Virus record (IMG/VR): IMGVR_UViG_3300032164_000034
Coordinates: 1 to 37,671 of that record
DNA: 37,671 nucleotides
Source: a virus
Direction: 5' to 3' (one strand)
The position numbers and the translations under genes were made by a program. Position 1 is the stretch's first letter; each line of letters begins with the position of its first letter. The notes under the pieces were generated by a model, which worked only from the letters and a program-made list of their open reading frames with translations, was not told the DNA's origin and ran no database searches. This document shows, one piece after another, positions 3,469 to 32,100 of this stretch.

Positions 3469-3516
3469 CTAGGTCAGTTTTTCGGTCCGGTGCGTAAAGA
3501 TCCCAACAGAGGATCA

Positions 3517-6605: not shown

Positions 6606-7019
6606 ATGACGTGGGAGTACGCGGCCTCAATCGTTCGAGTCCTCGACGGCGACACCGCCGTTTTCAGGCTGGTCAAGACCTTCACCCAGGAGGTTGACTT
6701 TGGCTTCTTCATCCACGACTCCGTGGCTCTCTCCAAGAGCACAGAGTTGAGCTTCAGGTTTTTCGGGATCAATTGCCCGGAGATCCATAGCTCGGACGCG
6801 GCTCTCAAGGCCCGTGGATTGAAGGCGAAGGCAGAGGTCGAGCGCCTGTGCTCCCTCGGCCCCTTGCGGCTCGTGAGCTACAAGCCGGACAAGTACGGAC
6901 GCTGGCTCGCTGATGTCTATGTGACGCCCTCAGGCAAGAAGGAAATCCATATCAACCAGGCTCTCCTGGACGGTGGTTTTGCCCTCCCGTACAACGGCGA
7001 CGGTGTGAAGCCGGTCTGA
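6606..7019 (+). CDS. Staphylococcal-nuclease-like (thermonuclease) protein
   Basis: The protein is 137 residues. The SNase/OB-fold signatures are present: VLDGDTA (Asp14, Asp16), RFFGINCPEI with Arg51 and Glu59, and KYGRWLADVYV with Arg99, then INQALLDGGFALPY. These correspond to the calcium and catalytic residues of the family, except that the usual Asp of the GIDxPE motif is Asn56. Activity is therefore plausible but may be altered. The domain is interrupted near residues 24-46 by an insertion (KTFTQEVDFGFFIHDSVALSK). No signal peptide is present, so it would act inside the cell, for example on host nucleic acid. Confidence 0.8.
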   Translation: MTWEYAASIVRVLDGDTAVFRLVKTFTQEVDFGFFIHDSVALSKSTELSFRFFGINCPEIHSSDAALKARGLKAKAEVERLCSLGPLRLVSYKPDKYGRWLADVYVTPSGKKEIHINQALLDGGFALPYNGDGVKPV

Positions 7020-10154: not shown

Positions 10155-10792
10155 GCGAGGTCGAAATCACCTGCCTCGGGGACTCGGCTCACATCCGTGA
10201 TCTCGGCCTGAAGATGACTCGCGGTTCCAAGATCCGCACGAGTCTCTCAGCGATCTCCAATTCCCGTGACCTGGAGGATGCCAAGGCGCGTGGTCTTGTC
10301 TCCGTGAGTGTGATGAAAGCTCAGACCATCAGAAGGGAAGACCTACCCATCATGCCGCCTCCTCCGATCGAACCCTCTGCGAACCACCAGAAGATCGCAC
10401 GGTCCTCCCATCAGTCGGGTTCTGGGAATCCACACACGGAGGGACACCATGACCCACACTCGACCGAGTTGCTGAGGGAACTCCTCCTCGAAATCCGGGG
10501 TCTTCGAGAAGACATGCGGAAACGTCAACCTGAACCCAAGACCGATCAACTGGCGGCAGAAATCGCGAATGCCGTTCGAGGCGCTCTGAGCGGGCTTCAG
10601 TTTGGGTCCGGCGGGGGCACTGTTGCCTCCCTCTCTTCGGAGCCAGAAGAGAGATTCATTCCTCGTGGTATCGTCTCAGGGTCAACGAAGACAGACATTG
10701 AGACAATCAACTCGGTAGCCCCGAGTACCTCAGGTCTGGATGATGCCAGCGGAGCCCTCAGAAATGCCCGCCGTCAGACAAAAGAAGGGTGA
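10151..10792 (+). CDS. Hypothetical protein with a short beta N-terminal domain
   Basis: The protein is 213 residues and overlaps the previous stop (ATGA). The N-terminal 60 residues (VEITCLGDSAHIRDLGLKM, then SRDLEDAKARGLVSVS) form a small domain seen in several phage neck regions, where it is unassigned. The middle is Pro/His/Ser-rich and disordered. A helix follows near 105-140 (LLRELLLEIRGLREDM) and the C terminus is Ser/Thr-rich. It has no cysteine pair or catalytic motif. The gene ends 7 bases before the actin-like gene. Confidence 0.65.
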   Translation: MSEVEITCLGDSAHIRDLGLKMTRGSKIRTSLSAISNSRDLEDAKARGLVSVSVMKAQTIRREDLPIMPPPPIEPSANHQKIARSSHQSGSGNPHTEGHHDPHSTELLRELLLEIRGLREDMRKRQPEPKTDQLAAEIANAVRGALSGLQFGSGGGTVASLSSEPEERFIPRGIVSGSTKTDIETINSVAPSTSGLDDASGALRNARRQTKEG

Positions 10793-10799
10793 CAAGAAC

Positions 10800-11813
10800 A
10801 TGAGCGGGAAACCCGAAACAGTCCGAGGTGTAGGTCTCGACGTAGGCACCATGAATTTCGTGTCCGCACGGCGGACCTCGAAGGGTGTCGAGACTCGTCG
10901 GATGCGGGATGCCTTCCTCGATCTCCCGCCTGAGTCCAAGAAGATGCTCAAGCTTTCGGGTGTCTCCTATGTGGACCGGGAGGATGAGATCCTCATCCTT
11001 GGGGATGCCGCTCTCGACATGGCCAACGTCTTCGGACGAGAAGCCCGTCGTCCGCTCTCTGGCGGCCTCGTGTCCTCCACGGAGGTGGATTCCCTGGAGG
11101 TTCTCGGGCTACTCGTCCGGAACGTCCTCGGGGCTCCTGAGGAACCAGGGGAGCACTGCTACTTCTCGGTCCCGGCGGCTCCGGTCGATTTGGTGGGCCG
11201 AGACGTGGTCTACCACCGTGGCATCTTCGACCGCATCGTGTCCGAGTGTGGGTACACGCCCCACTCTGGAAACGAAGCTATGGCGATCATCTACTCGGAG
11301 ACTGCCAGGGACGGCTTCTCTGGGATTGCCCTCTCGTTCGGTTCGGGCATGACCAACATCGCCCTCTCTGTGAGCACGGTAGAAGGGCTGGCCTTCTCTG
11401 TCGGTCGAGGGGGAGATTGGATCGACTCTGGCGCGGCGAAGTCGGTTGGGTCCACCCAGGCTCGCATGTGCTCGGTCAAGGAAAAGGGCATCGACCTCAA
11501 CAACCCGACTTCCAGGGAGCAAGAGGCACTCGCCTTCTACTACAAGAACCTGGTCGAGTACGTCCTCGACCAGATCGCCCTCCAGTTCAAGGCCGTCGAG
11601 GGTCGGTTCTCGCTTCCGAAGCCCATCCCGATCATCGTCTCCGGGGGCACCTCCTTGGCTGGTGGTTTCCTGGAGTTCTTCACCGGGGTCTTCGAGAAGA
11701 AGCGCAAGAAGTTTCCGATCCAGGTGAGTGAGATTCGGGCAGCCTCGGATCCGCTCAATGCCGTAGCCCACGGGCTACTCGTGCAGGCTCTCCAGGAGTA
11801 CGCTGATGAGTAA
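10800..11813 (+). CDS. Actin/Hsp70-fold ATPase (ParM/MreB-like)
   Basis: From ATG 10800 (AAGAAGGGTGA just upstream) the protein is 337 residues. Three hallmark nucleotide-binding motifs are present in the right order: phosphate-1 GLDVGTMNF (12-20), phosphate-2 LSFGSGMTNIAL (near 178-189) and adenosine SGGTSLAGGF (281-290). A connect-2-like segment (PLNAVAHGLLVQAL) follows near the C terminus. This fold includes ParM, MreB and Hsp70-type proteins. Its length fits a filament-forming actin homologue, but subunit-contact residues cannot be checked here. It lies within the neck-gene cluster and overlaps the next gene by 8 bases, so it is probably co-expressed with virion genes. An upstream in-frame start at 10740 is less likely. 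Confidence 0.8.
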   Translation: MSGKPETVRGVGLDVGTMNFVSARRTSKGVETRRMRDAFLDLPPESKKMLKLSGVSYVDREDEILILGDAALDMANVFGREARRPLSGGLVSSTEVDSLEVLGLLVRNVLGAPEEPGEHCYFSVPAAPVDLVGRDVVYHRGIFDRIVSECGYTPHSGNEAMAIIYSETARDGFSGIALSFGSGMTNIALSVSTVEGLAFSVGRGGDWIDSGAAKSVGSTQARMCSVKEKGIDLNNPTSREQEALAFYYKNLVEYVLDQIALQFKAVEGRFSLPKPIPIIVSGGTSLAGGFLEFFTGVFEKKRKKFPIQVSEIRAASDPLNAVAHGLLVQALQEYADE

Positions 11814-12259: not shown

Positions 12260-13384
12260 GTGTATTTTCACCTGACAGAAGCGACTCGGCGGAGGCTCAT
12301 CAAGGAGCTTCGTGCCTACTGGTCTCTGCATCCCAGGTACCAGGACATCATCGACAACATCCAGGGCAAATTTTCCTTCGAGGAACGCCCTCAGTACGGC
12401 ATCATCCTCAAGACGGGTTCTGCCACCAAGGTCCAGTTCTCACCTGACAACTTCATGGGGACTGTGCAGAGCTATGTGGCCCTAGCCAAGATCCCAGGAT
12501 ACGCAGGGTTGTCGGTAGATTGGGTCAGGGAGGACTCCCTCGCGATCCAAGCAAACGGGGGTAGGTTCCCATCTCAGAGTGGGGTCTACTACTGCGAGAT
12601 GGTCACGGAAGACACGTTCTTCGTGGACCCTCTGCTCGATGTCAGGGACGAGCGGATCCTGATGACCACCCCCTCGGAAGGGACCCTTCAGGGGATCCCC
12701 TATGCCGGGAGCCTACGGATCTTCGAGATGCCCAGCGGGCGTCTCCTCCGTCCGGGCGTGAACTACACGATCGGCGCAGACCAGGTCACCGTCTATCTGG
12801 CTGTGCCACTAGCCAACGGACAGGCGCTCTCGGCTGACTACCGGGTCGCTGGGGTGACTACCGGACCCTGGAAGGTGGAGGCCCAGTCGGGCCTTAGTCA
12901 TGTGATCCCAGGGGTGGTGTTGGTCTTCGGGCGGCGCTACCAGAAGGGCGACCGTTGGGCAATCATCGTCTCCCAAATCCGGGAGCCTGCGTACATGGAG
13001 TACGGCGGGAAGTGGGAACTGGGCATCGACATCGACATCATCGCCCGTGACGTGAACGCCCAGGTCGAGATTGCGGATCAGACGGCCATGTTTCTGTGGG
13101 CGATCCTGCGACCCAACCTCGTTGACGAGGGGCTCGACATCATGGATGTGTCGATGGGCGGGGAGTCAGAGGAGATCTACGACGAGAACGGAGACGACTA
13201 CTTCTACAACTCCGCAATCTCGATGACCATCCAAGTAGATTGGTTTCTCCATGTCCCGATTCTCCCCAGGATTTTGTCCTACCAGGAGGATGTGAAGGGG
13301 CTGCCGCAAGACCTCTCCTTGTCGCCGTTCAAGGATCCGTTCTTCTCAGGGAAGTTCGAGCACTTCGAGAAGACCCTCGGTTGA
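12260..13384 (+). CDS. Virion structural protein, probable neck/tail-terminator
   Basis: The protein is 374 residues from GTG 12260, one base after the previous stop. The N terminus has a helical segment (IKELRAYWSLHPRYQDI), then beta-rich regions (QYGIILKTGSATKVQFSPDN, then GYAGLSVDWVREDSLAI). A second part near 215-300 (ELGIDIDIIARDVNAQVEI) and a final SISMTIQVDWFLHVPILPRI-like stretch are consistent with a beta-sandwich head-tail or tail-terminator protein of large myoviruses. Two genes farther on is the tail sheath. The exact role is inferred from place and shape. Confidence 0.65.
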   Translation: MYFHLTEATRRRLIKELRAYWSLHPRYQDIIDNIQGKFSFEERPQYGIILKTGSATKVQFSPDNFMGTVQSYVALAKIPGYAGLSVDWVREDSLAIQANGGRFPSQSGVYYCEMVTEDTFFVDPLLDVRDERILMTTPSEGTLQGIPYAGSLRIFEMPSGRLLRPGVNYTIGADQVTVYLAVPLANGQALSADYRVAGVTTGPWKVEAQSGLSHVIPGVVLVFGRRYQKGDRWAIIVSQIREPAYMEYGGKWELGIDIDIIARDVNAQVEIADQTAMFLWAILRPNLVDEGLDIMDVSMGGESEEIYDENGDDYFYNSAISMTIQVDWFLHVPILPRILSYQEDVKGLPQDLSLSPFKDPFFSGKFEHFEKTLG

Positions 13385-14009: not shown

Positions 14010-17000
14010 ATGCCGACTCTTCTTCGTGGTGGCTACGCCCCGCCCGGTGTCTACACCCAGACCTTCTTCGGCGTCCCCCCGACCCCGACCCCGATTCCCG
14101 ATCGCCTCCCTGTGTTCATCGGGACTGGCACGGAGATCCTCTCCCGGTCGAACCTCCCCGTCGTGCGTGGCTCCTCCAGCACCATCGACCAACAGGTCGT
14201 GGATGAGGACGAGGCAGGGCGTGCAGTCACCAGCGTCTCTCCGAGTGGGGTCGTCTCCATCGGGGCGTTCGATGGGGTGATCACGAAGTTCCAGGTCCGT
14301 AATCTTCCGATCGTCTCGGGCGATGGTACGGGCACTCCGGCGGTGGACACGAGCGCAGTCTCGTGCCGCGTCAATGGCTTCCCCACCGTGGTCCTCGGCC
14401 TCGATGCAGCCAAGGGCATCGTGGAGATTGCAGTCGCCCCACAGGTGACTGACATCGTTCGCTGCACCTACTTCTTCGACCGCTCGGACACCCTGACGAC
14501 CGACGACGTGTCGGATCAGATCACCCAGGATGCAGCCGTCATCGACGGCCTCGCGGGTCAGACCTTCGCCTTCGTCCTCGGGGCGAACGACGTGTTCTCA
14601 ATCTCGGTGGACGGACTCGCGTTCGTGAACATCGTGATGCCCTCGTCCGCCCCCTCGGTGAGCGGCGCAGTCGTGGCAGCGACGATCAATGGTGCGGCGG
14701 GCATCGGTTCGCTCGTCGCCTCCACCTACGTCAACAACCTCGCCCAGGTCTGCATCCGTCTCTCGGCGGACAAGTCGATCGTCATCGGGACCGGGACGGC
14801 GAACACGACCCTCGGGTTCACGCCGAACACGGCGACTGCTCGCAACCGGGTCTTCTACACATTCCAGGGTCCGATCGTGGACGGCACGGGCGGCGGCATC
14901 ACGACCACCGACCCGTCGCGCATCGTCGTTCTCGTGGACGGCATCCAGGTCATCCCGACGGCGGTCAACGGATCGGCTCGGAGCTTCACGCTCCCCTACG
15001 CCCCGGCCCTCGGCTCCACGGTCACGGTCCGCTACTTCTTCAACACCTGGCAGGACACGTTCGACTACCTCGCGAACATCAACGTCACTGCCATCACGCG
15101 GGTCGCCCTCACGCCGGATGGTTCGACGGCGGGCACGTTCCTCCAGGGCGTCAGCTACGTCCTGAAGGACGATGTGATCGTCTGGGGAACGGCGGCGCTC
15201 ATCTCTGCTGCTACCCACACAGAGGGCGGGGCGACCCTCGGCACGTCTCAGATCCAGGCGATGCTGGTGGACAACCAGATCTTCCTGGCCCCCTGCACCC
15301 CGACCGTGAACAGCACGGGTCCGGTCTCGGTCGAGAGCCGCACGGTGTTCCAGCTTCCGTATCAGCCCACGACGGGCAACGGTCGCGGCAACCCGCTCGG
15401 GTCGGCTCTGTACCAGGTCGTCTCCAACGGGAGGATTGACCTCCCGACGACTCGCCCCGACCTCATCACGGCATACTGGGGCTTCGGCGTCCAGGATGCG
15501 ATCGACCGTGGTCCGGTGACGGTCCTCAAGGTGGACAGCACCACCTCGCAGATCACGCTCAGCCCGATGGTCCCGGAAGGAGCCTCGGTCTTCGCGAGCT
15601 TCTACTACAACACGCTCGTGGACATGGCGAACATCGGCACGAGCAGCGCCTACACGCTGACGTGCGTGACAGCGGGTCCGGGAGGCATCGGCACCTATTC
15701 GCTCAAGGGCGGTTCGGGTGCATCCCTCTTCGGAGCAAGCCTCACCGCCAAGGGCACTGACCTCACGACCGTAGAGATCGTGTTCCCGTCGGGCTCGGAG
15801 TTCTTCCCCGATGCTCGCGTCGAGGGTGCCGCTCCGGTCGAGGAGACTGTTCAGGTCGAGTTTGCCACGTCGGATCTGACTCCGGCGCGGTTCACGAACT
15901 TCGGCCCCGGTCCCTACTACACGATCGACAACACCTCGGATCGTCTCCGGGTGACCTTCGATGGTGTTCCTGCCTTCACCGGCATCGCCGCTGGTGTTGA
16001 TCTCTCGTCACCCACGGCAGGCACCCGCGCAGGAGCCTTCGCTCACCTTCTCGGTGAGGAGATCAAGTACACAGCGGCCTCAGGCGAGACGACCTACGAC
16101 CTCACCTCGGGTGTGGACGACGCGATCAATCTCCTCGTGGATGGCGTCCCCCTCGCTGCGGCGACGGGCACTGTCCTCGGTGCGACGGCGGCCAACTTCG
16201 TCTCGGCCATCAACGCATCGGCTGTCCTGGCAGGCAACGAGCCCTACTACAACGGCGCGGGCACCTTCACGGCCTTCACGGTCACTGCTGGTGAGTACGA
16301 CCAACTCACCCTCCACTACACCGGAGACGTGAACGGACCGTCGGGCAACCAGACCATCACCCTCGCGCCTGGCGCGTATGTGTCGGTCGGTGCGCTCGTC
16401 GCCCAGATCAACACGCAGCTTGCGACGATCAACGGCGCAGGCTTCCTCCTCGGGTCGGTCACGGCCTCGGCACTCGCCTCGGGCCAGGTCCGGTTCACCC
16501 TCGCGATCGGCACGGCCTCGGACCTCCTGACGTTCGGCGGCATCCCGCTCAACACCGAGACGGTCACGATCGACGGCAAGGTCTACACGTTCCAGACCGT
16601 TCTCACGAACGTGGATGGAAACGTCCTCATCGGCGGTTCGGCTGCCGCCTCGCTCAGCAACCTCATCGCGGCGATCACGCTCGGTGCAGGGGCTGGCGTC
16701 ACCTACGCAGCGGCGACGACACTCCACCCGACGGTCACAGCGGTTGCTGGAACTGTCGTCGGTACGATGCTCGCGAAGGCGAAGGCCAGCGGGTCTGCCG
16801 GGAACACCATCGCGGTCAGCACGACGGTCACACTCGGTGTGTGGGCTACAGCCACGCTCCTCGGCGGTGACGACGCTGGCTACCTGGAGTTCATCACGAA
16901 CGCGCTGCTCGCACGGGACTTTGCAGTTCTGGCAGGCATCGACACGGACACGGCGACGAACAGCAATCAGACCAAGATCTACAACGGTCCGATCGCTCGT

Positions 17001-19319
17001 CGCTACACGGTGGCGACAACGGCTGGTCGTCTCCCCTACGACCGCATCCTTCTCAGGAACCGCATCTTCCCAGGTGGGAACTCGCTGTCCTACGTCTCGA
17101 CCCTCGCACAGACCGGGATCACCCTTCAGGGCGGCACCGGCATGGTGAAGTCCGGACTCATCAACGGTGAGACGGCTGAGGCTGTCTTCGGTGCGAACGT
17201 CAAGGCACCGACGATCATCGCCTACACTGGATGGGCGGATGGTCAGGTCGCCACGGCCACCTACGGTGATGCGCGTGACGGTCAGGCGAACGTCATCTTC
17301 TACGACGGCACAGACCCGTCGAACCCGGCGAACAACCTCCTGACCTTCACGGCGGGTGGCGGCCTCGTCACGGTGATCTTCACTGCCTCGACTCTGGGCA
17401 CGGCTACGGCCTTCGGTCCGGTGACGATCGCTGGCTCGGTCCTCGGTCAGATCAACGCAGCCATCGTGGCTGCGGGGCTCAGCGCGACCGTCCAGGTTCT
17501 CCAGGAGGGTGCGGCTGCTCGTCTCGTCGGAGGCGGCGTCAACGCGGCTGCAACCCTGGTGATCGGTGCTGGAAGCTCGAACGACACCCTCGGCTTCGCT
17601 GAGGACGACTCGGCGGCTCCTACGCCTGTCTCCACCCGTCAGTTCATCTCGGCCCTCATGGGTCACACAGCAGCGGCGTCCTTCGTGGCGTCGATGCTCA
17701 GCTACGCACTCCCTGTCGCTGGCTACTTCCCGGCCCGTGCCCTCGCTGGCATCCAGAAGGACTCGACGGGCAACGTCTTCCTGTACTTCCAGAGCCAGAC
17801 GCTCGGAGTCGGGTCGAGCATCAACTTCGACAACGCGACCACGAACAACTCTCTCGTGACGGGGACGCTGCTTCTCATCACGTCGGCGGATGGATCGTCT
17901 GGTGAGGCCGCAATCAACGGCTTCTTCGTCACGTCCTCGAATCCGAGTCTCGGTTCTGGTTCGGCGGACACCTCGGTCTTCAACTCGGGTGTCGGTCAGG
18001 ACGGCGTGGTCGGTCAGACCTACCGGGATGAAGTGACCGGGTTGGTCTTCACGATCCTTCCGCGTGCGGGTGGGCTCCCCTACCCGACAGGCGCGAACGC
18101 AACCCTCACCTTCAGGGTGAGCAAGACGTTCACGACGGATGGCAACATCCCGACCCTCGCAATCCCCGGACTCGAACTCACGGTCACGAACACCTCGCTG
18201 GTGGTCGTGGGTGACACGGCGTTCATCGAGACCTTCAAGAAGACGGGCGATGAGCCCACCATCGGGGAGATCTACTACGTCAGCTACCTCTTCCGGAAGC
18301 AGGACTTCTCCCCGAAGTTCTTCTCGCGGCTGTCGGAGGTCGTGGCCGAGTACGGACCGGTGAGCCCGGACAACCCGCTCTCCCTCGCGGCCTTCCTCGC
18401 GTTCCTGAACGGGTCGTCAATCATCGCGACCTACCAGGTTCTCAAGGAGCCTGGTTCGTCTCAGGCGAGCGAGCAGTCGTACCTCAACGCTCTCGTGGAC
18501 CTTGAAGGCGACTCGCTTCCGGGCAACATCTCGCCCACGGTCCTCGTGTTCCTGACCCCGGCTACGCCGGTCCTGACGAAGTTCACGGCCATCCACTGTG
18601 ATGTGCAGTCGAGCATCCGCTACCGCGCAGAGCGCACCGCAATCTTCGGATTCGCATCGGGTACCCAGCCCTCGCAGGCTGGTGCTCTTGCTCAGGCGAC
18701 TGGCGCAACGCGCGTTCGGTTCGTCTACCCCGACATCGCCACGATCACCCTCACCGACGTTCTCGGGGCGTCCAAGACGTACCTCGTGGACGGTCGGTAC
18801 ATCGCAGGAGCGGTTGCCTCCTCGACCACGGCTCCGAGCATCGACTCGGCAACTCCGTGGACGGGTCGGCTGCTCAGTGGCTTCACGACCCTCGCTCGGT
18901 CGCTCGACGCGGTGGAAGCGAACCAGGTCGCCTCGCGTGGTGTCACCGTGATCGAGGAGCGTCTTCCGTTCATGCGGATCCGCCACGGCCTCACCAGCGA
19001 CATGAGCAACGCGCTCACGAAGCTGCCGACGGTCATCCAGATCGCAGACGACATGCAGCGTCGCGCTCGTGCGGTGCTCGATGCCTTCATCGGCGTCAAG
19101 TTCCTCCCGCAGATCCTCGGGCAGATCGAGGGGCAACTCTCCGAGATGTTCAAGCGCGCTGTCCAGGGACAGATCATCACGAGCTTCACCGGAGTCAGCG
19201 TCATCCTCGACCCTGAGGATCCCACGGCTGTCCTGGTCGAAGCCTTCTACATCCCGGTCTTCCCGCTGCTCTACATCCAGTTGACCTTCCGCGTCTCGTC
19301 GCAGTCGGCAACGGTCTGA
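14010..19319 (+). CDS. Giant tail sheath protein
   Basis: The protein is 1769 residues, against about 650-700 in T4 and phiKZ. The N terminus (GGYAPPGVYTQTFFG, then LPVFIGTG) is a typical sheath opening. Residues about 1410-1769 hold the conserved contractile core: PTIGEIYYVSYLFRKQDFSP, PTVLVFLTP, GRYIAGAVASS, then ERLPFMRIRHGLTSDM and a final IPVFPLLYIQLTFRVSSQ strand. Between them are over 1,300 residues of beta-rich modules, including TVTIDGKVYTFQT (near 850) with downstream ASLSNLIAAI, a module shared with other phage tail proteins. IVIGTGTANTTLGF (near 260) and LVIGAGSSNDTLGF (near 1185) are two copies of another. A strong AGGAG precedes the ATG, and the tail tube gene lies two genes on. 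Confidence 0.92.
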   Translation: MPTLLRGGYAPPGVYTQTFFGVPPTPTPIPDRLPVFIGTGTEILSRSNLPVVRGSSSTIDQQVVDEDEAGRAVTSVSPSGVVSIGAFDGVITKFQVRNLPIVSGDGTGTPAVDTSAVSCRVNGFPTVVLGLDAAKGIVEIAVAPQVTDIVRCTYFFDRSDTLTTDDVSDQITQDAAVIDGLAGQTFAFVLGANDVFSISVDGLAFVNIVMPSSAPSVSGAVVAATINGAAGIGSLVASTYVNNLAQVCIRLSADKSIVIGTGTANTTLGFTPNTATARNRVFYTFQGPIVDGTGGGITTTDPSRIVVLVDGIQVIPTAVNGSARSFTLPYAPALGSTVTVRYFFNTWQDTFDYLANINVTAITRVALTPDGSTAGTFLQGVSYVLKDDVIVWGTAALISAATHTEGGATLGTSQIQAMLVDNQIFLAPCTPTVNSTGPVSVESRTVFQLPYQPTTGNGRGNPLGSALYQVVSNGRIDLPTTRPDLITAYWGFGVQDAIDRGPVTVLKVDSTTSQITLSPMVPEGASVFASFYYNTLVDMANIGTSSAYTLTCVTAGPGGIGTYSLKGGSGASLFGASLTAKGTDLTTVEIVFPSGSEFFPDARVEGAAPVEETVQVEFATSDLTPARFTNFGPGPYYTIDNTSDRLRVTFDGVPAFTGIAAGVDLSSPTAGTRAGAFAHLLGEEIKYTAASGETTYDLTSGVDDAINLLVDGVPLAAATGTVLGATAANFVSAINASAVLAGNEPYYNGAGTFTAFTVTAGEYDQLTLHYTGDVNGPSGNQTITLAPGAYVSVGALVAQINTQLATINGAGFLLGSVTASALASGQVRFTLAIGTASDLLTFGGIPLNTETVTIDGKVYTFQTVLTNVDGNVLIGGSAAASLSNLIAAITLGAGAGVTYAAATTLHPTVTAVAGTVVGTMLAKAKASGSAGNTIAVSTTVTLGVWATATLLGGDDAGYLEFITNALLARDFAVLAGIDTDTATNSNQTKIYNGPIARRYTVATTAGRLPYDRILLRNRIFPGGNSLSYVSTLAQTGITLQGGTGMVKSGLINGETAEAVFGANVKAPTIIAYTGWADGQVATATYGDARDGQANVIFYDGTDPSNPANNLLTFTAGGGLVTVIFTASTLGTATAFGPVTIAGSVLGQINAAIVAAGLSATVQVLQEGAAARLVGGGVNAAATLVIGAGSSNDTLGFAEDDSAAPTPVSTRQFISALMGHTAAASFVASMLSYALPVAGYFPARALAGIQKDSTGNVFLYFQSQTLGVGSSINFDNATTNNSLVTGTLLLITSADGSSGEAAINGFFVTSSNPSLGSGSADTSVFNSGVGQDGVVGQTYRDEVTGLVFTILPRAGGLPYPTGANATLTFRVSKTFTTDGNIPTLAIPGLELTVTNTSLVVVGDTAFIETFKKTGDEPTIGEIYYVSYLFRKQDFSPKFFSRLSEVVAEYGPVSPDNPLSLAAFLAFLNGSSIIATYQVLKEPGSSQASEQSYLNALVDLEGDSLPGNISPTVLVFLTPATPVLTKFTAIHCDVQSSIRYRAERTAIFGFASGTQPSQAGALAQATGATRVRFVYPDIATITLTDVLGASKTYLVDGRYIAGAVASSTTAPSIDSATPWTGRLLSGFTTLARSLDAVEANQVASRGVTVIEERLPFMRIRHGLTSDMSNALTKLPTVIQIADDMQRRARAVLDAFIGVKFLPQILGQIEGQLSEMFKRAVQGQIITSFTGVSVILDPEDPTAVLVEAFYIPVFPLLYIQLTFRVSSQSATV

Positions 19320-19856: not shown

Positions 19857-20669
19857 ATGGCCAACACCGACATCAACCCAGCGAATGGCGTACAAGGTAG
19901 CTCCTACCTCTACGACTTCGGGACGAGCCCGAACACACGGGTTGCCGTCTCTCAGAAGGTTCGGCTCCTTGCCCCGGCCTACGGCTCGGGAACGAAGGCG
20001 CTGTTCCAGATGGGCGTCGTCTCCTCGTTCAGCCCGAGTCAGAGCCGGAGCGTCGAGCCCGTCCGTGGCATCGGCTACGGCGACATGATCGCGGAACTCG
20101 TTCCGTCGGTCACAGAGCCTGTCACCGGCTCAATCGAGCGCGCTCTCCTGTACCTCGCGAACCTCTGGCAGGCGACGGGCTACTCGGGCGGCGTGGACGG
20201 TCCGGTCAGGTCGCTCGCCCACCACAGGTGGCCGTTCGACATCGAGCACCAGTTGGTGTTCTCGACCCTCGCTGACTCGGACCTCGGGTTCGCGAACGTC
20301 GGTCACTCAGGGGCAGAGCGGAACTTCGGCGGCGGCGTCCAGAAGGTCAGCTTCCCCCAGGTCAGCGTGCCGACCCCGGCACCGCCCACCTACGGTGCGA
20401 ACCAGGGGCACTCGGCCATCATCACGATGTACGAGGCGTGCTGGTTCACAAGCTGGTCAGCGACCTACACACAGGACGCTGGGCAGATCATGGAGTCCGG
20501 CGATGTGAGCGTCTCGGACGTTCACGACTTCTCCTCGCTCTACGGGGAGTTCCTCCCGACTGGCAACGATCCTTCGGTGGACCAGCTTGGTTCGATCCGC
20601 TACGGCGGCTCGGCTGAGATCGGGACGCTGACCGGTGCTGGTGTGGTGGGTGGTACCGGTATCCGCTGA
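19857..20669 (+). CDS. Tail tube protein
   Basis: The protein is 270 residues. It directly follows the sheath region, as the tube normally does in myoviruses. It is beta-rich, with VEPVRGIGYGDMIAELVPS, EPVTGSIERALLYLANLWQ and a His-rich SLAHHRWPFDIEHQLVFSTL block, then AIITMYEACWFTSWSATYT. This order of a receptor loop, one helix and strands fits the tube fold and the family of large-phage tube proteins. ACGGAG lies before the ATG. An inverted repeat CCGCC/GGCGG lies in the gap before it. Assignment rests mainly on position and overall pattern. Confidence 0.75.
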   Translation: MANTDINPANGVQGSSYLYDFGTSPNTRVAVSQKVRLLAPAYGSGTKALFQMGVVSSFSPSQSRSVEPVRGIGYGDMIAELVPSVTEPVTGSIERALLYLANLWQATGYSGGVDGPVRSLAHHRWPFDIEHQLVFSTLADSDLGFANVGHSGAERNFGGGVQKVSFPQVSVPTPAPPTYGANQGHSAIITMYEACWFTSWSATYTQDAGQIMESGDVSVSDVHDFSSLYGEFLPTGNDPSVDQLGSIRYGGSAEIGTLTGAGVVGGTGIR

Positions 20670-20761: not shown

Positions 20762-22015
20762 GTGGGCCTCACACTTCAAGATCTCAAGACTGCGATGGCC
20801 CCCCTTGCCGAAATCGGCAAGGGCGAATTGACCTTCGAGGTCAATGGGACTCGGATCTCACTTCGAGCCCTGACTCCTGATGAGGAGATTGCAGTCCAGA
20901 GGTACTCCCGGTCTTCTCTCGCAGAGGGTGATCTCACGGATCAGACCACAGCCTTGGAGTACCTGGACAAGTTCAGGAACGGCTCCTTGGGCTACAGCAT
21001 CGTCCAGATTGGGAATCTGGATTTCCGCAATGTGGAGACCATCGAGACGGGGGAAAAGCTCGCCAACGGCACCGCCATCAAGGTCAAGCGTCACGAGGCA
21101 ATCCAAGGGCTCGTGGGCAACTGGTCGCGGAACATGACCGTCGCCGTCTTCAAGAAGTTTGGCGAACTGATGAACCAGGTTGAGAAGGAGGTTGAAGGGC
21201 TCATCGAGTTTGAGTCCATCGACTTCGACGGGGAGATCACCAGGCTCGAAGATCGAATCCGGGAACTCAAGGAAGAGAAGGCTCGCATCACCCTGTCGGA
21301 CGCCGATCCCAGGACCAATCTCCGGCAACAGGTTGCCACCTCAGGCAAGTCCTTCCGCCGCCCAGAAGCGGGAAGCACAGCCGCCGCAACAACCGACTCA
21401 ATCCAAGACCAGCAGAACACGATTCAAGAGGCTGGGACGGTTTCGGTCCCGTCTGACATTGACCGGGAGATTGCCTCGGAAGAGGAAGAGTCCCAAGAGG
21501 AACCAGAGGAGCCCTCCATGGACCTCCTGGGAGCCCAGGGAGCCGCTCCGCCGGTCGAGAACCTCCGGAAGTCTGTGTTGGACCGTGGGACCGCTGGTGG
21601 GGCCATCAGGATGCCTCCACCGTCCCCCTCGAAGCAGGCACCTGAGGAGTTTCAGGAGAGCGTCGATGAAGATGCTCCTCCTGAGCCCACAGCGGACCCC
21701 CTCTCGGATGTCATGTCTTCGATGGTGGACATGGGAGACTCGGACTCGGCAGAGAAAGCCGTCGAGATGGAGACTCGTCGCATCATGGAGATGCGGGCCA
21801 ACGCCGCGAAGATGTCGCGGAAGCCGCCTCACGTTGCAGCAAAGCAGGCGGCTCAAGAGATTGAGCGGCCCACCGCTGCGGGCACCAAGGACGGCGTGGA
21901 GGTCTACAAGATGCCCACGCAGACACTCACGGACAGACGGCCACCTGAGACGGTGCAGGCACCTGTACGGAGCAACGCCAACCCCCGCTTCAAGCCCACA
22001 CGCAGCGGGGGATGA
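20762..22015 (+). CDS. Tail-assembly (chaperone-position) protein
   Basis: The protein is 417 residues from GTG 20762 with AGGAG upstream. The first 140 residues are ordered (ELTFEVNGTRISLRALTPDEEI, then YLDKFRNGSLGYSIVQIGNLDFR) and read like a tail-assembly protein. A coiled coil follows near 140-180 (ITRLEDRIRELKEEKARI), then a long Pro/Glu/Ser-rich disordered region to the end. It lies between the tube and tape measure, where assembly chaperones usually sit. A programmed frameshift is common there, but I saw no convincing slippery heptamer near its end. A short hairpin (GCGGGG/CCCCGC, 22005-22021) covers its stop codon. Confidence 0.7.
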   Translation: MGLTLQDLKTAMAPLAEIGKGELTFEVNGTRISLRALTPDEEIAVQRYSRSSLAEGDLTDQTTALEYLDKFRNGSLGYSIVQIGNLDFRNVETIETGEKLANGTAIKVKRHEAIQGLVGNWSRNMTVAVFKKFGELMNQVEKEVEGLIEFESIDFDGEITRLEDRIRELKEEKARITLSDADPRTNLRQQVATSGKSFRRPEAGSTAAATTDSIQDQQNTIQEAGTVSVPSDIDREIASEEEESQEEPEEPSMDLLGAQGAAPPVENLRKSVLDRGTAGGAIRMPPPSPSKQAPEEFQESVDEDAPPEPTADPLSDVMSSMVDMGDSDSAEKAVEMETRRIMEMRANAAKMSRKPPHVAAKQAAQEIERPTAAGTKDGVEVYKMPTQTLTDRRPPETVQAPVRSNANPRFKPTRSGG

Positions 22016-22074
22016 CCCCGCACTGGTGAATCACGCCCGTGCTTCCTTCCACGACCAAGGAGCAAAGGGGTCCG

Positions 22075-23250
22075 ATGTACGAGGATCTCATTCCTCTGGT
22101 CGTACCTGGATTCCTTACGACTCGCGTTCAGATTGGTAGCACCTCTCTTGGGCTCCGATCTCTGTCGATCAACGACACCAACCACCTCCGCCAAATCGCC
22201 CGTGATGGAGGACCAGACTGGCCCTTCCATCTGGCGGCGGCGAGCATCTGGATGATTGATGGGGTCTCTCTGTTGGAGAGCTACCCGTACAATCAGATGC
22301 CAGCCCTCGCTGTCCTTCGGAATGGGCACAAGTCCCTGGTCAGGATGGTGTTCTCGCAGGCGTTGAGCTTCTTCCGCCGGATGCGAGATGCCAACCGCCT
22401 GTTCGAGGCGTTCCTCTACGAGGACGAGTCCAGGAGGCTCTGGAAGGCCACGAACAACGGGGCACACCAAATCTGGACGCAAGCAGGGATGCCGGGGCTC
22501 GAACGGCTCGGCCAGAACCCGTTTCAATCTTCTTGGGTCCAGTGGAACCGCGCAGAGGATGACCGGCTGGACGACGACTACCAGTGGAGCCTGACGAAGA
22601 TGCTCGTCTCGGTGCAGTCCTCGAAGTCGGCCAAGAAGCTCGACGCGAAGGACAAGACCAGGCTCGAAGCAGAGAAGTCACGACGGGCAGAGGCCCAGAA
22701 CCGCGCCTACTACATCTACAAGGGTGTCCTCGATGATGAGGGCAAGCGGAAGGAAGACCCAATCCTTCAGGTGCTCCAGCCACGGACAGCCCAGGAACTC
22801 TCTGAAGAGATGCGCCGCTGGGTCTCTGGCGAGAAGGACATCCACGATCTCGTGGTCGAGGACTACAAGAACCGCATCAAGATTGAGTACGAGGAAAAGG
22901 AAAGCGAGGCAGAGCAAGCCCTTCAGAACGTGCGGGCTCGGGCTCTCCTGGAGGAGCGGAACTTGGGGGTTCCGAAGCCCAGGATGATTGGGTACACGCC
23001 GGAACAGCTTGCGAAGCTGCGTCCGACTACCCAGAAGCCTGGTGCGAAGTTCATCATCGAGGCGAACATGACCTCCCGGAACTTCAATCGCTACCTGCGG
23101 GACAACCCGAACGCTGGTTCCCTCGATGTGGTGGACGGACGGGTCGTCGTGAAGAACCCATCTATCGCTCCCCAAGGAGACGAGGAGGCAGAGCCTGCTC
23201 CGACCCTCAACGAGTTGATCGCAAACCGGAAACCCACCCTGAATGGCTAA
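22075..23250 (+). CDS. Tail-assembly or baseplate-related protein before the tape measure
   Basis: From ATG 22075 (AGGGG upstream) the protein is 391 residues; an in-frame GTG at 22039 would add 12. Blocks such as GLRSLSINDTNHLRQIA, PFHLAAASIWMIDGVSLL, LFEAFLYEDESRRLWKA and LSEEMRRWVSGEKDIHDLVV form a pattern I associate with proteins coded just ahead of tape measures in large myoviruses. The middle has a Lys/Arg-rich stretch (SAKKLDAKDKTRLEAEKSRR) and the C terminus is loose. It overlaps the tape measure by 8 bases, so the two are likely co-translated. The exact role (chaperone or hub assembly) is open. Confidence 0.65.
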   Translation: MYEDLIPLVVPGFLTTRVQIGSTSLGLRSLSINDTNHLRQIARDGGPDWPFHLAAASIWMIDGVSLLESYPYNQMPALAVLRNGHKSLVRMVFSQALSFFRRMRDANRLFEAFLYEDESRRLWKATNNGAHQIWTQAGMPGLERLGQNPFQSSWVQWNRAEDDRLDDDYQWSLTKMLVSVQSSKSAKKLDAKDKTRLEAEKSRRAEAQNRAYYIYKGVLDDEGKRKEDPILQVLQPRTAQELSEEMRRWVSGEKDIHDLVVEDYKNRIKIEYEEKESEAEQALQNVRARALLEERNLGVPKPRMIGYTPEQLAKLRPTTQKPGAKFIIEANMTSRNFNRYLRDNPNAGSLDVVDGRVVVKNPSIAPQGDEEAEPAPTLNELIANRKPTLNG

Positions 23251-26200
23251 CAGCAGCGAGCATACAGTCAAGCTGTCAGCGGACTTCTCCGACTTCGTTC
23301 GCAATGCGAACAAGGCCGGGAAGAAGTCCGCTGAGGCCATCGGCAAGGCTATCGAGGCTGGGGTCTCATCGCACTCGGTACAAGCCTACCAGAAGGCAAA
23401 CAAGATCTACGAGAAGCTGACTCGGGCATCTGTAAAGGAGATGGCACAGTACGAGTCTAACTTGAAAACCAAACTGAGCGGCGAGACAGAACAGAAGCTC
23501 AGGAACTCCATCAAGAACATCGCCAAGCTCACTCAAGAGCTTCAAGACATCACCCTAGACGATGATGCCAGGAAGAGGAAGCAAGCTGAGAAAAAGTCTT
23601 TCCAGGAGAAGTGCAAGAACCTGAGCAAGTTGAGTGACACTTCGGAGAAGGACATCAAGACCCAGATGGCTGCGTTGATGTCCGGTATGCGAAAGGCAGA
23701 TAAGGAGCATCAGGCTGACGATCAGAGGGCAAGTCGGAGGATGAAGGCCAACACTGAACTGTTGAGGGTTCAGAACAAGCTTGCCCATGTGTTCAAGGGG
23801 GAACTTGTATCCGGGGCTAGTGAACTCAACTCCGGTCTGGAAAGTGCCCTGACCAAGTTCAAGGACGGTATCTCGAACATCGACATTGGTTCGATGATTT
23901 CCGGTGGTGCCTCGGCTCTAGGGAAGGGGCTGGGGGGAGCCGCAGAGTCCCTGGGGGCGCTCGGCGGGGCTGGGGGTGCCCTCGGAGGATTGGCCTCGGC
24001 ACTAGGCGGTGTAGCCCTAGTCCTCGGACCCCTGGTCATCGCCTTCGGGCTCTTTGCCGGTGTCATGTTCGGCATCGACAAGGAGGTCAAAGAGTTCAAC
24101 AAGACAGCAATCAACGCATTTGGTACCCGAAGCGTGTTCGCTCTGGGTGGTGGGAACATAGAGGCAGGTCTCACGACTCTAAGGCACGCCACGCAGGACT
24201 TGAACAAGACACTCGGGCTCACCTCCGAAGAGGCCATGGGCGTGTTTGATGCCCTCGACGCTGGGGGTATATCTCTTAATCGCCTCACGAAGGGTGCCGC
24301 CGCTGGGGCGGCCCAGGAGAAAGTTCTGGGGGAAGTGCTCCGGCAGACAGCCTCAGCAGCCAAAGCTCTCGGGGTCGGAGTCAGTGAGTTCACGAGCCAC
24401 CTCGCTGAGTACGCGAACGAGACTGCAAACTCCTTGGAGAGTGTCACGGACCAGTTCGCCCTGGTGTCGAAGCAGGCTCTGGACGCAGGGTTCTCTACTC
24501 GCCGGTTCTACTCGCTGATCACTCAGGCAGCATCGGGCCAGGCTTCACTCAATACGCACCTCTCCACGACGGGCGATTTGCTCATCAAGATGGCCAAGGC
24601 CATCGGAGACAAGGCTGCGGCAGAGATGATTGGTGGGGCGTCTGCTTCGTTCAAGGACATGAGCACTCAAGATCGGTACAAGACGATCATGACGACCGGC
24701 GCAGGCCGGACGAAGGATATCCTCAAGGGGAGCGCAGAGCGTCAGGCCAGCACCTTTACAGCCGACCTGAAGGCACTTGGGAAGAACTCTGAACTCGCCA
24801 AATCTCTCAAGATGGCAAGGGATGCTGGCGTCACGTTGTCTCCCGAAGCTCTTGCGGATGTGTCTGGTGAGAAGCTCGTGAAAGAGCTTGCCTCGATGAC
24901 TACAGCGCAGCAGTCCACGCTCATGTCGTCTCTTACGAGTTCTTCAGACAAGACGGTCTCTGATTTGGGTCGGAGATTGGATCAGCTTACTACGGTCAGC
25001 CGTGGCACCACGGGGAGCATGGCTGACATGTCCACTGCGCTGGGTGGGCTCGATCCAGGTGCAGCTATCGCCATGAAGCTTTCGAGCGCGATGGCGATCC
25101 TTGGGAGGCCGCTGGATGAATTGACGGGCGTAGACCGGATGGCTGCCGAGTCGATCACTGGGCTGACCGGTTCGCAGATGGAGCAGTACCAGGCTCTAGC
25201 CAGAGTCTCCAAGGGTAACTTTGCTCTGCTGGAGAACACAGCGGACGACATGAAGACGATGTCCAAAACGGACAGGGAGGCTCTTCAGGCTGATCAGGAT
25301 ACGCGGTTCGGTGCTCACATGGACGAGAACGGGAAGGTCGTCACCAAGAGCGGGGCAGAGATTGCGAACGCGATGGAACTCATGTCCTCCACTGTCGCCG
25401 CGAGTCCAGACGAGATCAAGGACATCAAGGACGAGAACACTGTCCTCGCTGAGGACGCTCTTGACGAGACAATGACGATCTCGGACGTGCTCCAGAATGA
25501 GATCACCCAGTACCTGCGTGGCATCTACGAGGATGTGGGCCTCCCCTTGCTTGACATCATCGAGGGCATGATGGGGACCTCGGAGGCAAAGCGAGCTAGG
25601 CACGAGACGACTGCCTTCAAGAAGTCTCTTGCTAGATCCACACGGGAGTCTATGGGAGAGAAGCGGACTGCGGAGCGCACTATTTCGACGCTCGAAAGAA
25701 AGACAGACCGCACCGAAGAAGAAGATGCTGAACTTGAGCGCGCTCGCGGCACTGTGGCAGTTGCAGACGCGAGGATCGCCGCTGCGGATGAAGCCAGAAC
25801 CAAAATTGAAGGCGGTGTAGATGAGGCTGGGAATGCCATCGCCCCAGATCTTTCGGCTCTCGCAGACACCTTTGACTACTATCTTGAGGGTAGTGATCGT
25901 GCCTACTCCACTGAAGAGGAGGCTCGGGCGGCAATGACCCCTGAGCAGTTGGCAAATGAGTCCTCTAATATAGGTCCAGGAATGTTCGGTGGTGGTGAGT
26001 ACATCACGAAGTCGGCTGCCCACCACACCTCTGGCAGTGTTGCTGCTGGAGGTCTCCTTGATAGCGCGGAGACCGCTGCCGTCCGTAGGATTAGGGCTGA
26101 CAGGGCAGCGGCGGCTGAGGCAACTGGCGCACCTGGTGCGCCAGTTGTGGTCACACCGCCTGGTGGAGCCCCAACTACAGCCCCAACTGTTCCTGGAACA

Positions 26201-27061
26201 GTAGCGCCTGCCCCCATCGCCTTGGTCGCACCGACCGCACCGACCACAACGGCAGCACCTGCTGTAGCGCCTTCGGTTGTGTCCGATGCTACGTCTGGGA
26301 TGGCTGAGGCACCTGTCGCTGTCGAAGATGCGTCCGCTCTTGCCAGGGAGGACGCAGAAGAGACTCGAAAAGCACACGAGAAAGCTGTCGAGACTGGGAC
26401 CAAAGCAGTCGTCAAGGCTCTCACGAAGGACGTGAAGCTCGGGAACTCGCTTGCACGGAGCAATCTCCCCGACGCGATTGGGGTTGCGATCATCAAGGCC
26501 CAGACGATTCATGACATCGAGGCGCTGGCCCTCGCGGCAGGTTTGAGTCCTGAGGACACAGCCAAAACCGTCTCCGAGTTCATGGAGAAGGGAACTGTCT
26601 CTGGGGGCCTTCAGAAGGCTCTTGGAGACCTCCCTGAGACATCCAAGAGAGCCCTAGATACTCTATCGGGTGGTCTGGGTGTCAATCTGGGCAGTGCTGG
26701 CGTCCAAGGTGGTCCGTCAGCGGCCCCCATCTACGGGAGCGGTCGCAGATTTGGGACGGGGGCGTCGGCGGAGGCTCCAGATCCTGATTCTGCTGTTGCA
26801 GACTCGGATGTCACAACTCCTGGGGTAGAGGACTTCCTCTACCGTGGTGACGGCGTTCGCGGGACAATCACACCGATCGACACGGCAGATGATGTCATCG
26901 GCATGAAGCGTGGTGGAGCTATCGACCGTGCCACTGGCGGCTCTGGTGGCTCTGTCACTGTGAACATCTACGGCGGCGACGAGCGCCGCGTCTTCGACGT
27001 GGTGAAGCGAGTCTTGTCGCAGTCTGGGATTGGCCCAGGACGAGTGACAGCGCGTGCCTAA
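23243..27061 (+). CDS. Tail tape measure protein
   Basis: The protein is 1272 residues. The N-terminal 200 residues are long Lys/Glu-rich helices with coiled-coil character (SVQAYQKANKIYEKLT, then QKLRNSIKNIAKLTQELQD). A Gly/Ala-rich stretch leads to a hydrophobic helix at about 252-278 (VALVLGPLVIAFGLFAGVMFGI). Helical repeats with Ser/Thr-rich turns follow. The C-terminal third has a coiled coil (near 800-860), a Pro/Ala/Thr linker (near 955-1020) and a Gly-rich end (GGSGGSVTVNIYGGD). This layout, together with its place between tube and baseplate genes, makes it the tape measure that sets tail length, consistent with a tail of roughly 190 nm at 1.5 angstrom per residue. The final GTG of the next gene overlaps its stop. 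Confidence 0.85.
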   Translation: MANSSEHTVKLSADFSDFVRNANKAGKKSAEAIGKAIEAGVSSHSVQAYQKANKIYEKLTRASVKEMAQYESNLKTKLSGETEQKLRNSIKNIAKLTQELQDITLDDDARKRKQAEKKSFQEKCKNLSKLSDTSEKDIKTQMAALMSGMRKADKEHQADDQRASRRMKANTELLRVQNKLAHVFKGELVSGASELNSGLESALTKFKDGISNIDIGSMISGGASALGKGLGGAAESLGALGGAGGALGGLASALGGVALVLGPLVIAFGLFAGVMFGIDKEVKEFNKTAINAFGTRSVFALGGGNIEAGLTTLRHATQDLNKTLGLTSEEAMGVFDALDAGGISLNRLTKGAAAGAAQEKVLGEVLRQTASAAKALGVGVSEFTSHLAEYANETANSLESVTDQFALVSKQALDAGFSTRRFYSLITQAASGQASLNTHLSTTGDLLIKMAKAIGDKAAAEMIGGASASFKDMSTQDRYKTIMTTGAGRTKDILKGSAERQASTFTADLKALGKNSELAKSLKMARDAGVTLSPEALADVSGEKLVKELASMTTAQQSTLMSSLTSSSDKTVSDLGRRLDQLTTVSRGTTGSMADMSTALGGLDPGAAIAMKLSSAMAILGRPLDELTGVDRMAAESITGLTGSQMEQYQALARVSKGNFALLENTADDMKTMSKTDREALQADQDTRFGAHMDENGKVVTKSGAEIANAMELMSSTVAASPDEIKDIKDENTVLAEDALDETMTISDVLQNEITQYLRGIYEDVGLPLLDIIEGMMGTSEAKRARHETTAFKKSLARSTRESMGEKRTAERTISTLERKTDRTEEEDAELERARGTVAVADARIAAADEARTKIEGGVDEAGNAIAPDLSALADTFDYYLEGSDRAYSTEEEARAAMTPEQLANESSNIGPGMFGGGEYITKSAAHHTSGSVAAGGLLDSAETAAVRRIRADRAAAAEATGAPGAPVVVTPPGGAPTTAPTVPGTVAPAPIALVAPTAPTTTAAPAVAPSVVSDATSGMAEAPVAVEDASALAREDAEETRKAHEKAVETGTKAVVKALTKDVKLGNSLARSNLPDAIGVAIIKAQTIHDIEALALAAGLSPEDTAKTVSEFMEKGTVSGGLQKALGDLPETSKRALDTLSGGLGVNLGSAGVQGGPSAAPIYGSGRRFGTGASAEAPDPDSAVADSDVTTPGVEDFLYRGDGVRGTITPIDTADDVIGMKRGGAIDRATGGSGGSVTVNIYGGDERRVFDVVKRVLSQSGIGPGRVTARA
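26121..26147. repeat. 27-bp perfect palindrome inside the tape measure gene
   Basis: CAACTGGCGCACC (26121-26133), a single T, then GGTGCGCCAGTTG (26135-26147). The arms are fully complementary. It encodes part of the Ala/Pro linker (ATGAPGAPV), so it is also coding. As a transcript it forms a strong hairpin. It may be chance in a low-complexity linker or a site for a DNA-binding protein. Confidence 0.85.
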
Positions 27062-29148: not shown

Positions 29149-32100
29149 GTGTCCATTCTGAACAGACCCTATGCGGGGACGTGGGGGGAAAACCGCAGGA
29201 AAATCGTCCAGTACACCCCGGATGCGCTCGTCTACCTGAACGGGGACACGGGCCTGGCGGGGTGTGCGACCTGCCACCACCGGATTGACGTACAGCAGTT
29301 CGTCACGTCTGTCTCGGTGGACGCAGGGGTGGACCCAGGGGCTAGCTCATCGAGCATCACCCTCTCGATCCCCAGGCACTACGGGGACTCAATCTTCAGG
29401 GACGGGAACACTCTCCTTCGCACTGGGCTTGAGGTCCATGTGTACTTCCGTGGCTACTTCCCGATGACCGGGATGGCCGACTCGGACTCAGATCCTGATG
29501 CCTCAATCGTCGCCGGGGTCAATCTCTCGGACATCCCCCAGTACCCCTACTACCCGGTCTTCCACGGGGTAGTCACTGGCGTCTCCCACGAGTACTCGGG
29601 CGGCTACTACTCAGCGTCGCTGACCTGCTCGGGAATGCTGCACTTCTGGCAGTACATGACGATCGCCTCGAACGGATCGTTCTTCGGAGCCCGCCCAAAC
29701 AACTCTGGGGTCAGGACCAATCTTCGAGGTCACGTCTTCACTGGGATGAGCCCGTTCGCGATCATCTACAGCCTCTACCAGAACACCCTCGGTTCGGCGG
29801 CAGGCGTTGGGTTTGCTCTCCAGAGCCGGACGAACATGCAGGCGATCTCGTCTGCTACGGGCGACTCCAGCTACGCGATGGTTCAGCAGTACTGGGAGCG
29901 CAGGTTCCTTCAGGGGATGTACCGGCTCAGAATGCACGGAGCGTCAGGGCAACTCTTCTCAGGCTCGACGCAGGCATACCTTGCTAGGCTTGGTGGACGG
30001 CAAGCTCGGATTCTCTCTGTTGTCACGGGCAACAACCGCAGCGAACGCGACCCTCTGGCTTCAAGCGCAGAGGAGTTCAATCTGATCGACCGGGACGGGG
30101 CAGGTCGGATCAATCGAGGCGCAGACCTCAGGTCCCTAGCGGGGACCAGCGGTAGTGCGACCGACCACGGCGTGGTCGTCCCGCAGATGCAGGCATTCGT
30201 CAACGACATTTCCCAGTGGGGTCAGGTCAGTCTCTTCGAGACGACCTACGAGACCAAGCTCGACATTGCCACGCAAGTCTCGAACATCTGTGGCTACGAG
30301 TTCTACCAGGACATGGACGGGGACTTGGTGTTCAAGCCACCCCTCTACAATCTGGATACCTCGTCGTCGCGAATCTACCGGATCGAGCCCGAAGACATCG
30401 TTTCAATCTCGTTCACGGAGGCTGAGCCAGAAGCCACCTGGGCCACCGTGAGCGCCGGGCCGTTCCAGAACATGCGCGGCGTCGTGGACGAAGCAGAGTT
30501 CGGGGTTCGAGCCACCTACTACGACTACCGGCTCATCGCGCAGTTTGGTTGGCGTGAAGGTTCGATGGAGTCGAACTACTACTCGAACGCCAGGTCAGCC
30601 TTCTACGCAGCGGTCGCGAACCTTGACAAGCTCAATCAGGGAATGAACTCGGCCTCAGTCACGATCCCCCTGCGGCCTGAGATTCGACAGGGCTTCCCTG
30701 TCTTCATCCCCCACATCGACTGCTTCTACTACGTTCAGTCGGTCAGCCACTCCTTCTCTTACGGAAGCGCCTGCACGACCACTCTGAATCTGATCGCCCG
30801 TCGCCGGAAGTACATCCCACCGGGTGACCCGGCTATTCCTGGTATCGCTGGGATCACTCTCGAACAGACGACGAACCCTCCGAAGCCGGTTCAGTACCTC
30901 GACAGCAACATCCCTCGGATCTTGGGTTTCCCGAACGTCGTCATGGCGCTCGACCCGACGCGCATCAACCCCCTCTTCTTCGTCCTCGGACTGGATGCTG
31001 AAGAAGACAGAAGTGACGTTCACAGAGCCGGGTCTGATTCAATCAGACAGGCACGGCAAGAACTCCTAGCGTCGAACTTCGCTCAAATTCTCGTGAGTGA
31101 GGGTGTCCTCGGTATGGGACCCGCACCCGCTCCGGCCACCTCAGCGGCAGTGGATGCAGCCCTCGCATCTTTTGACAGCGCAAGGGCTCCTACCACTTCA
31201 GCCGTCACCCCTGCTGCTCCGACACCACCAGAGCCTACTGCGACGGCAGCAGAGGTCACCTCTGCGGCTCCAGACACTACATCTGGGGGCCGAGAGAGTG
31301 TCATATTGGGGGATTGGCACATCTTGGTTGCAGATCGTCAAAATGTTCGGGTTACTGCTGAACAACTTAGATTGGGGCTGGCTCGCCTCATCACCGCACG
31401 AAGGTCCCTTCGTACAAGCGTCACAAACATTGATGCGGAGATCCAGACACAAGAACACACCATCGAGGAGAACAGCACTGGCACCGGTAGTCGTGCGGCG
31501 ATAGACGCTGCAACCGCTGAGATCGAACGTCTTCGCACTGAGGCAGCCACCATCAACGCCTTCTTGGCAGATGGGACCATTGCAGAGAATGGGTTTTTGG
31601 TTTTTGGTGCCGGGCAACGAGCGACCATCTCTGGAAATACCGAGCTTGTGAATTTCCTCATCGGTCTGGTCCGTCAGAGGAACCCGAGCACGGCAAGTCG
31701 TGACATGAGCATGGATGCTACGGGGACGATCAACAACTCAGCGAACATCCTCGACCTGTTGAATGACCGAAAGTCAGCTATGGGGATCAACACTCCCGGC
31801 TACTATCGGTACTACTCGTCGGCCCATCCGAACCCCGATCAGCAGGGGTATGCGCCTCTTGCAACTAGCACCACGGAGGGGGCAGCGAGGCGTGGCGTTG
31901 TGGATGAAGCTGAGACAGGGACACCCGAGAGCCTCGCCTCGGCTGACAGGAGCAGCCCAAGGTCCGCTGCCATCAGCCCGGAAAGGCGAGCCGAACTGGA
32001 GAGTGAGATATCCAGATTGGATGCCAACATCACACAAATGGAAGACTTCGTGGCTGTGGGGACCAACCCACAATCTGACCTCGATACGCTTATCTCCCAA

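Follow-up and report, generated by a model that had tools for sequence, protein, structure and literature searches.

An exceptionally large contractile tail sheath protein in huge phages and the modular insert between its arm and core

A linear virus record of 37,671 bp, analysed over its whole length and called the window below, contains at 14010-19319 on the + strand an open reading frame of 1769 codons with zero internal stops, encoding a protein with a calculated mass of 182 kDa. A sequence-only reading had taken the product for an exceptionally large tail sheath, with a sheath opening at the N-terminus, a contractile core at the C-terminus and more than 1,300 residues between, and had itself raised the possibility of an assembly error joining two genes. 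The locus raises the questions of whether this frame encodes a genuine sheath, whether its size is peculiar to it, and what a contractile subunit would do with so much additional protein.

Arm, core and gene context of the sheath

The contractile core was recognised at the C-terminal end. No sheath match was returned when the full-length 1769-aa protein was compared with PHROGs and Pfam by hmmscan; the match appeared only with the C-terminus alone, whose 385 aa matched phrog_2839 'tail sheath' (E 7.6e-25). PF17482 was found in 14 of 42 relatives, with the window protein itself below the Pfam threshold, and neither the C-terminus nor the family profile matched any PDB entry by sequence. Residues 664-1769 were modelled with AlphaFold2 from 42 aligned sequences (mean pLDDT 77.6), and the predicted core at residues 1428-1751 (18291..19262, + strand) matched the sheaths of phiCD508 (VIA Z 24.2), phi812 (23.9), R2 pyocin (21.3) and T4 gp18 (17.8). 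The 50 matches listed, with Z from 24.2 to 15.6 over ~263-321 residues, were all sheath proteins or chains of contractile systems, and Foldseek aligned the core to solved sheaths with E down to 6.3e-10 and probability 1.00. At the other end, residues 1-60 (14010..14189, + strand) comprise the N-terminal arm and the first core strand (YAPPGVYT...VFIGTG), as aligned with the N-termini of the phage G, Myrna and Finch sheaths, and the motif Y.PPGVYT is present in full-length relatives. Between this arm and the core, whose alignment block begins at residue 1385 and whose modelled part begins at 1428, lie 1,324-1,367 residues, beta-rich throughout. The exceptional size, close to three times that of a usual sheath, and the proposed three-part layout were thus both confirmed.

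That the frame might be an assembly artefact, or two genes fused in reading, is extremely improbable, and no point in its favour was found. Two further IMG/VR contigs carry a 1769-aa ORF 100% identical to the window sheath, 61 distinct full-length relatives have the same architecture, and a selection signal runs along the entire frame. The identical ORFs on two contigs, together with purifying dN/dS in comparisons with four relatives, indicate that the ORF is not a product of chance or misassembly. Its GC3 of 0.82 matches that of the adjacent phage genes.

The sheath gene sits in a tail module with terminator, tube and tape measure genes, in an order kept in relatives, the tube and tape measure roles being assigned by position and homology. 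Upstream, the product of 12260..13384 (+ strand) is a probable tail terminator, homologous to the 'tail terminator' ORF of Tunturi_5 (E 6e-12) and to phage G gp177 (E 6e-9) and conserved upstream of the sheath. Downstream, 19857..20669 (+ strand) encodes the probable tail tube protein, whose homologues follow the sheath gene in most relatives and also in phage G (gp180, shortly after its sheath); 4 of 20 members of this family matched phrog_985 'virion structural protein'. No solved structure matched the candidate, so the tube role is assigned from its position. The gap between sheath and tube ranges over ~0.1-7.4 kb in relatives (L009, L016, L029, L063, L079 and others), which points to the insertion of extra genes into a gap that is normally short. 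Two conserved ORFs of 417 and 403 aa follow between tube and tape measure (20762..23250, + strand) in conserved order and occupy, by position, the place of tail assembly chaperones; they have no significant family match and no sequence likeness to each other. The probable tape measure of 1272 aa (23243..27061, + strand) is named from its position, length and conservation in relatives, and gave no family match. On the basis of profile, predicted fold and this tail-gene context, the product of 14010-19319 is a genuine contractile tail sheath of a huge phage.

Several other products were observed in the window. A volactin-family actin homologue (10740-11813; PF25216, E 2e-70) is encoded just upstream of the terminator and sheath, has homologues in 64 fetched loci, and appears to be a conserved member of the tail gene cluster. 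A 1778-aa tail-end protein (29149-34485) shows weak endolysin and tail-protein matches, has a close homologue in the uncultured phage LR745208, and probably acts in the tail as a baseplate hub or in cell-wall degradation. Farther upstream are encoded an RNA ligase-like protein (2421-3119; phrog_24030, E 1e-55), an 828-aa protein (3490-5976) that has a von Willebrand factor A domain at its N-terminus (PF13519, E 1e-9) and homologues in 7 fetched loci, and a small endonuclease (6606-7019; phrog_452, E 8e-16).

Relatives and the published size range

An IMG/VR profile scan found 259 stretches encoding relatives, from which 80 loci were kept, and the 61 distinct full-length sheaths among all fetched loci measure 1597-2488 aa with a median of 1741. 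The contigs of these relatives reach 618,736 bp (2488-aa sheath), 485,040 bp (1652 aa) and 316,221 bp (1741 aa). The sequence-only reading had stated that its claim would be refuted if sheaths of this length proved common in close relatives; lengths of 1597-2488 aa are indeed common among relatives, which refutes it in part, and the clade as a whole still exceeds the published range. Judged from these lengths, the giant sheath is to be regarded as a stable trait of a broad huge-phage clade and not as a one-off. The N-terminal-module relatives L115, L116 and L117 lie on contigs binned with Actinomycetota, Verrucomicrobiota and 'bacterium' metagenome genomes; these are probably viral contigs inside the bins and not evidence of host.

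The contention that known sheaths are far shorter, made with T4 gp18 and phiKZ as examples, stands only in part, since longer sheaths were already known: a survey of 153 sheaths gives 1283 aa as the largest, and reports that both the size of a sheath and its number of domains correlate with the size of the genome (PMC9230969). Against the maximum given there, the window sheath and its full-length relatives are 1.2-1.9 times as long, and a search of the open-licence literature found no report of sheaths longer than 1283 aa. The range of contractile sheath subunits is thereby extended from that published figure to about 2490 residues.

Several separately folded or duplicated modules lie between residues 61 and 1260, giving a core plus at least two added domains, and the window protein belongs with the multi-domain sheaths already known. 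The Type 3 sheaths (Evseev et al. 2022; among them Atu_ph07, 1086 aa, and LacPavin, 1283 aa) likewise combine a conserved core with many beta-rich domains; module duplication and an optional-module hotspot are found in the window family, whereas the accessible part of that paper describes neither. The added domains of Type 3 sheaths are often Ig-like; in the window sheath the best-predicted unit resembles outer domains of flagellin and FliD. Among named phages, the C-terminal core is homologous to that of phage G gp178 (579 aa) and of cluster C mycophage sheaths (Myrna, 482 aa), at ~24-30% identity over ~310-380 aa by tblastn. Phage G and Myrna also carry their extra residues between N-terminal arm and core and share the gene order sheath, tube, tape measure, but the phage G and cluster C sheaths have roughly 100-200 extra residues against about 1,350 in the window sheath, and the tail of phage G is far longer. 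Closer in length, the annotated 1204-aa sheath of the Tunturiibacter phage Tunturi_5 (308-kb genome) shows 32% identity over much of its length and has N-terminal modules in common with the window sheath, but lacks most of the region matching window residues ~690-1330. The 485-kb genome of LR745208 encodes an unannotated 1652-aa sheath with 59-60% identity over 94% and the same architecture, without the optional module at 843-957. New to our knowledge are the size class, its clade-wide fixation, the duplication of flagellin-like units and the presence of a site where modules have been acquired, lost and amplified.

Duplicated modules and an optional site in the insert

Self-BLAST failed to show repeats in the insert, but profile-profile comparison of family tiles showed internal duplication of two kinds of beta-rich unit, P and Q, which indicates that the insert was built partly by duplicating these modules. 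The P units lie, on the + strand, at residues ~92-157 (copy 1, 14283..14480), ~280-345 (copy 2, 14847..15044) and ~444-535 (copy 3, 15339..15614); the first two match each other with probability 99.2 and E 1e-19, and the third, more diverged, matches residues 56-165 with probability 95.3 and E 2e-8. Against tailspike, capsid and baseplate beta domains the P units gave weak matches (Z about 4-7). DUF2460 (PF09343), a family of unknown function, was found in the N-terminal part of 38 of 44 relatives (best E 2e-10) and weakly in the window protein (E 0.03, residues 84-167), where it overlaps P copy 1. Of the Q units, also on the + strand, copy 1 occupies residues ~170-280 (14517..14849), the region at ~690-832 (16077..16505; pLDDT ~90) contains a Q-like copy 2, with 180-232 matching 690-740 at probability 95, and Q-like copy 3 spans ~1104-1200 (17319..17609), matching 189-275 with probability 97.9 and E 3e-13; by profile comparison, 690-740 is a weaker copy of Q than 1104-1200.

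A model of residues 1-703 was built from 44 sequences with a mean pLDDT of 67, rising to ~80-92 over 61-345, and its poorly predicted stretches are 1-60, 351-420 and 546-703; farther along the protein, residues 891-951 and about 1264-1430 are also poorly predicted. When the middle region was searched against structure databases, as the earlier reading had proposed, Q copy 1 (pLDDT 83-92) matched both flagellin/FliD and sheath outer domains. Its residues 175-276 align with the outer domain of the Vibrio flagellin FlaA (9n8g) at VIA Z 10.4, with rmsd 2.1, 90 aligned residues and 13% identity, while the D2-D3 domains of FliD and the sheath outer domains of XM1, A-1(L) and Pa193 each gave Z of 7-8, values below 8 not being strong on this scale. 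In the model, Q copy 1 is thus predicted to adopt a D2/D3-type fold of flagellin and FliD outer domains, a likeness that concerns the fold alone. About three such flagellin/FliD-like units would occur in the one window sheath, unlike in XM1, A-1(L) and Pa193. In XM1 and A-1(L) the flagellin-like domain lies at chain residues ~92-210, after the core start (34 and 44), whereas in the window sheath it comes before the core start; judged from these aligned ranges, the position of insertion appears to differ from XM1 and A-1(L) and to match that in phage G and Myrna. Through the flagellin-like fold, tails and flagella, two unrelated kinds of helical filament, would be linked in their outer decoration. 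A BFVD fold search returned long matches of low TM score, mostly to tail fibres and uncharacterised phage proteins, and to one 1117-aa tail sheath; these are taken as no more than a sign of beta-rich tail proteins.

Across the 62 aligned rows, block lengths vary modestly, with one exception: at residues 833-956, 42 rows have an insert of 6-15 aa, 10 rows one of 69-132 aa and another 10 one of 808-837 aa. The window sheath has 124 aa there, including an optional module at residues 843-957 (16536..16880, + strand; occupancy 0.28) that is absent in most relatives; one relative, L011, has 9 aa and no module and is 85% identical to the window sheath over shared sequence. In the largest sheaths (2454-2488 aa) the site holds a stretch of ~830 aa with seven ~70-aa repeats, shown for five sheaths and weakly similar to the module of the window's group. 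In a tree of the cores, the ~830-aa type forms one group with support 100/100, and the presence of the medium-size module requires at least 4 changes. Residues 746-957, the optional module with its flank, are the least conserved stretch in close pairs. The module alone gave no match at 1e-3 by tblastn against phages, where low-complexity masking may hide matches. Taken across the family, the site at residues ~843-957 behaves as a hotspot of module gain, loss and amplification.

Proposed role of the insert

The sequence-only reading had suggested that the extra domains stabilise a long tail, a proposal that found no support. Mechanical stabilisation of an unusually long tail would accord with the tendency of large sheaths to accompany large genomes, noted in the survey (PMC9230969), but no rise of tape-measure length with sheath length was seen in the clade. 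Among complete sheath and tape measure pairs, the shortest tape measures, of 1077 and 1097 aa, are those that accompany 2484-aa sheaths, and sheaths of 1647-1773 aa are paired with tape measures of 1111-1256 aa; rho is -0.71 over 8 distinct pairs that are non-independent. Phage G builds a 450-nm tail on a 579-aa sheath (PMC8570332), with a tape measure of 2893 aa by annotated coordinates. With phage G geometry as the scale (1.56 A per residue of tape measure, a 41.5 A rise and six subunits per ring), the window tail is estimated at about 198 nm, ~286 sheath copies and about 52 MDa, so that its 1272-aa tape measure implies a tail of ~200 nm. Phage G and the clade pairs together suggest that long tails need no giant sheaths, and that giant sheaths occur here without long tails; the long-tail explanation, already disfavoured, is very unlikely.

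The main rival to a structural wall remains adhesion, in which the insert would be mainly an adhesive coat whose beta domains, repeated along the whole tail, improve adsorption through weak binding to host glycans or matrix. Binding of cell-surface material had been put forward by the sequence-only reading and is possible; the survey had already proposed it in general form, and suggested adhesion for Ig-like sheath domains (PMC9230969). The modules resemble flagellin outer domains and, more weakly, tailspike and capsid proteins, weak matches to CE2_N, a carbohydrate-esterase N-terminal domain, occur in 4 of 44 relatives (best E 5.7e-4), and relatives differ in whether they have the optional module and in how long it is. 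Yet no lectin or carbohydrate-binding family was significant in the window protein, and host-contact surfaces are usually fast-varying, whereas conservation and purifying selection extend over most of the insert. For the window sheath against four relatives of 77-86% identity, dN/dS is 0.10-0.24 in the insert (61-1384) and 0.07-0.24 in the core. Occupancy of the insert is near 1 across the 62 rows except around 843-957, the stretches 281-360, 441-480 and 1321-1360 are conserved clade-wide at or above core level, and P copy 2 is among the most conserved. Most of the insert looks structurally constrained, and an insert nearly as conserved as the core speaks more for an outer layer with a structural role than for an adhesin that evolves fast: its conservation supports, with moderate strength, an ordered layer in which subunits contact one another, as opposed to a receptor-binding coat that varies rapidly, and may also be compatible with the binding of a conserved ligand. 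An adhesive coat as the main role is considered a tentative possibility. The insert might instead be a docking lattice for separate tail appendages such as hairs, whiskers or a coil as in phage G; tail-sheath hairs are found in some jumbo phages, an outer coil occurs on phage G, and Ig-like sheath domains have been suggested to form appendages (PMC9230969). With no appendage gene tied to the sheath in this analysis, such docking is considered unlikely.

We consider it somewhat probable that the giant sheath combines a standard arm and core with an insert that is mainly structural, faces outward and forms a thick tail wall. According to the survey (PMC9230969), sheath domains beyond the core are located away from the tube; from this rule and the predicted fold, each subunit should carry its added domains outside the core, and to that extent the earlier idea of a decorated outer tail survives. 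Under the structural-wall reading, each of roughly 290 subunits would project its insert outward, and the tail, whose estimated diameter depends on packing, would wear a thick protein outer wall, 27-40 nm wide when extended, before contraction, and 40-52 nm after it, compared with ~24 nm for the tail of phage G. The core would slide and contract as in T4 or phi812 with the outer modules moving along, and the main part of the wall would be a structural layer of conserved inter-subunit contacts. A further proposal, that duplicated flagellin-like and beta modules form a second interlocked shell around the core, giving a ~50-MDa armoured tail that rearranges in every contraction and has one module hotspot amplified up to ~830 residues, is speculative and rather doubtful. 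A sheath with about three times its core mass outside that still contracts would test the load tolerated by the contraction mechanism. Within the wall, the optional module at ~843-957 would be exposed at the surface and free to vary, and the states found at its site (absent, one unit, seven repeats) form a natural series in which the role of sheath decorations could be examined.
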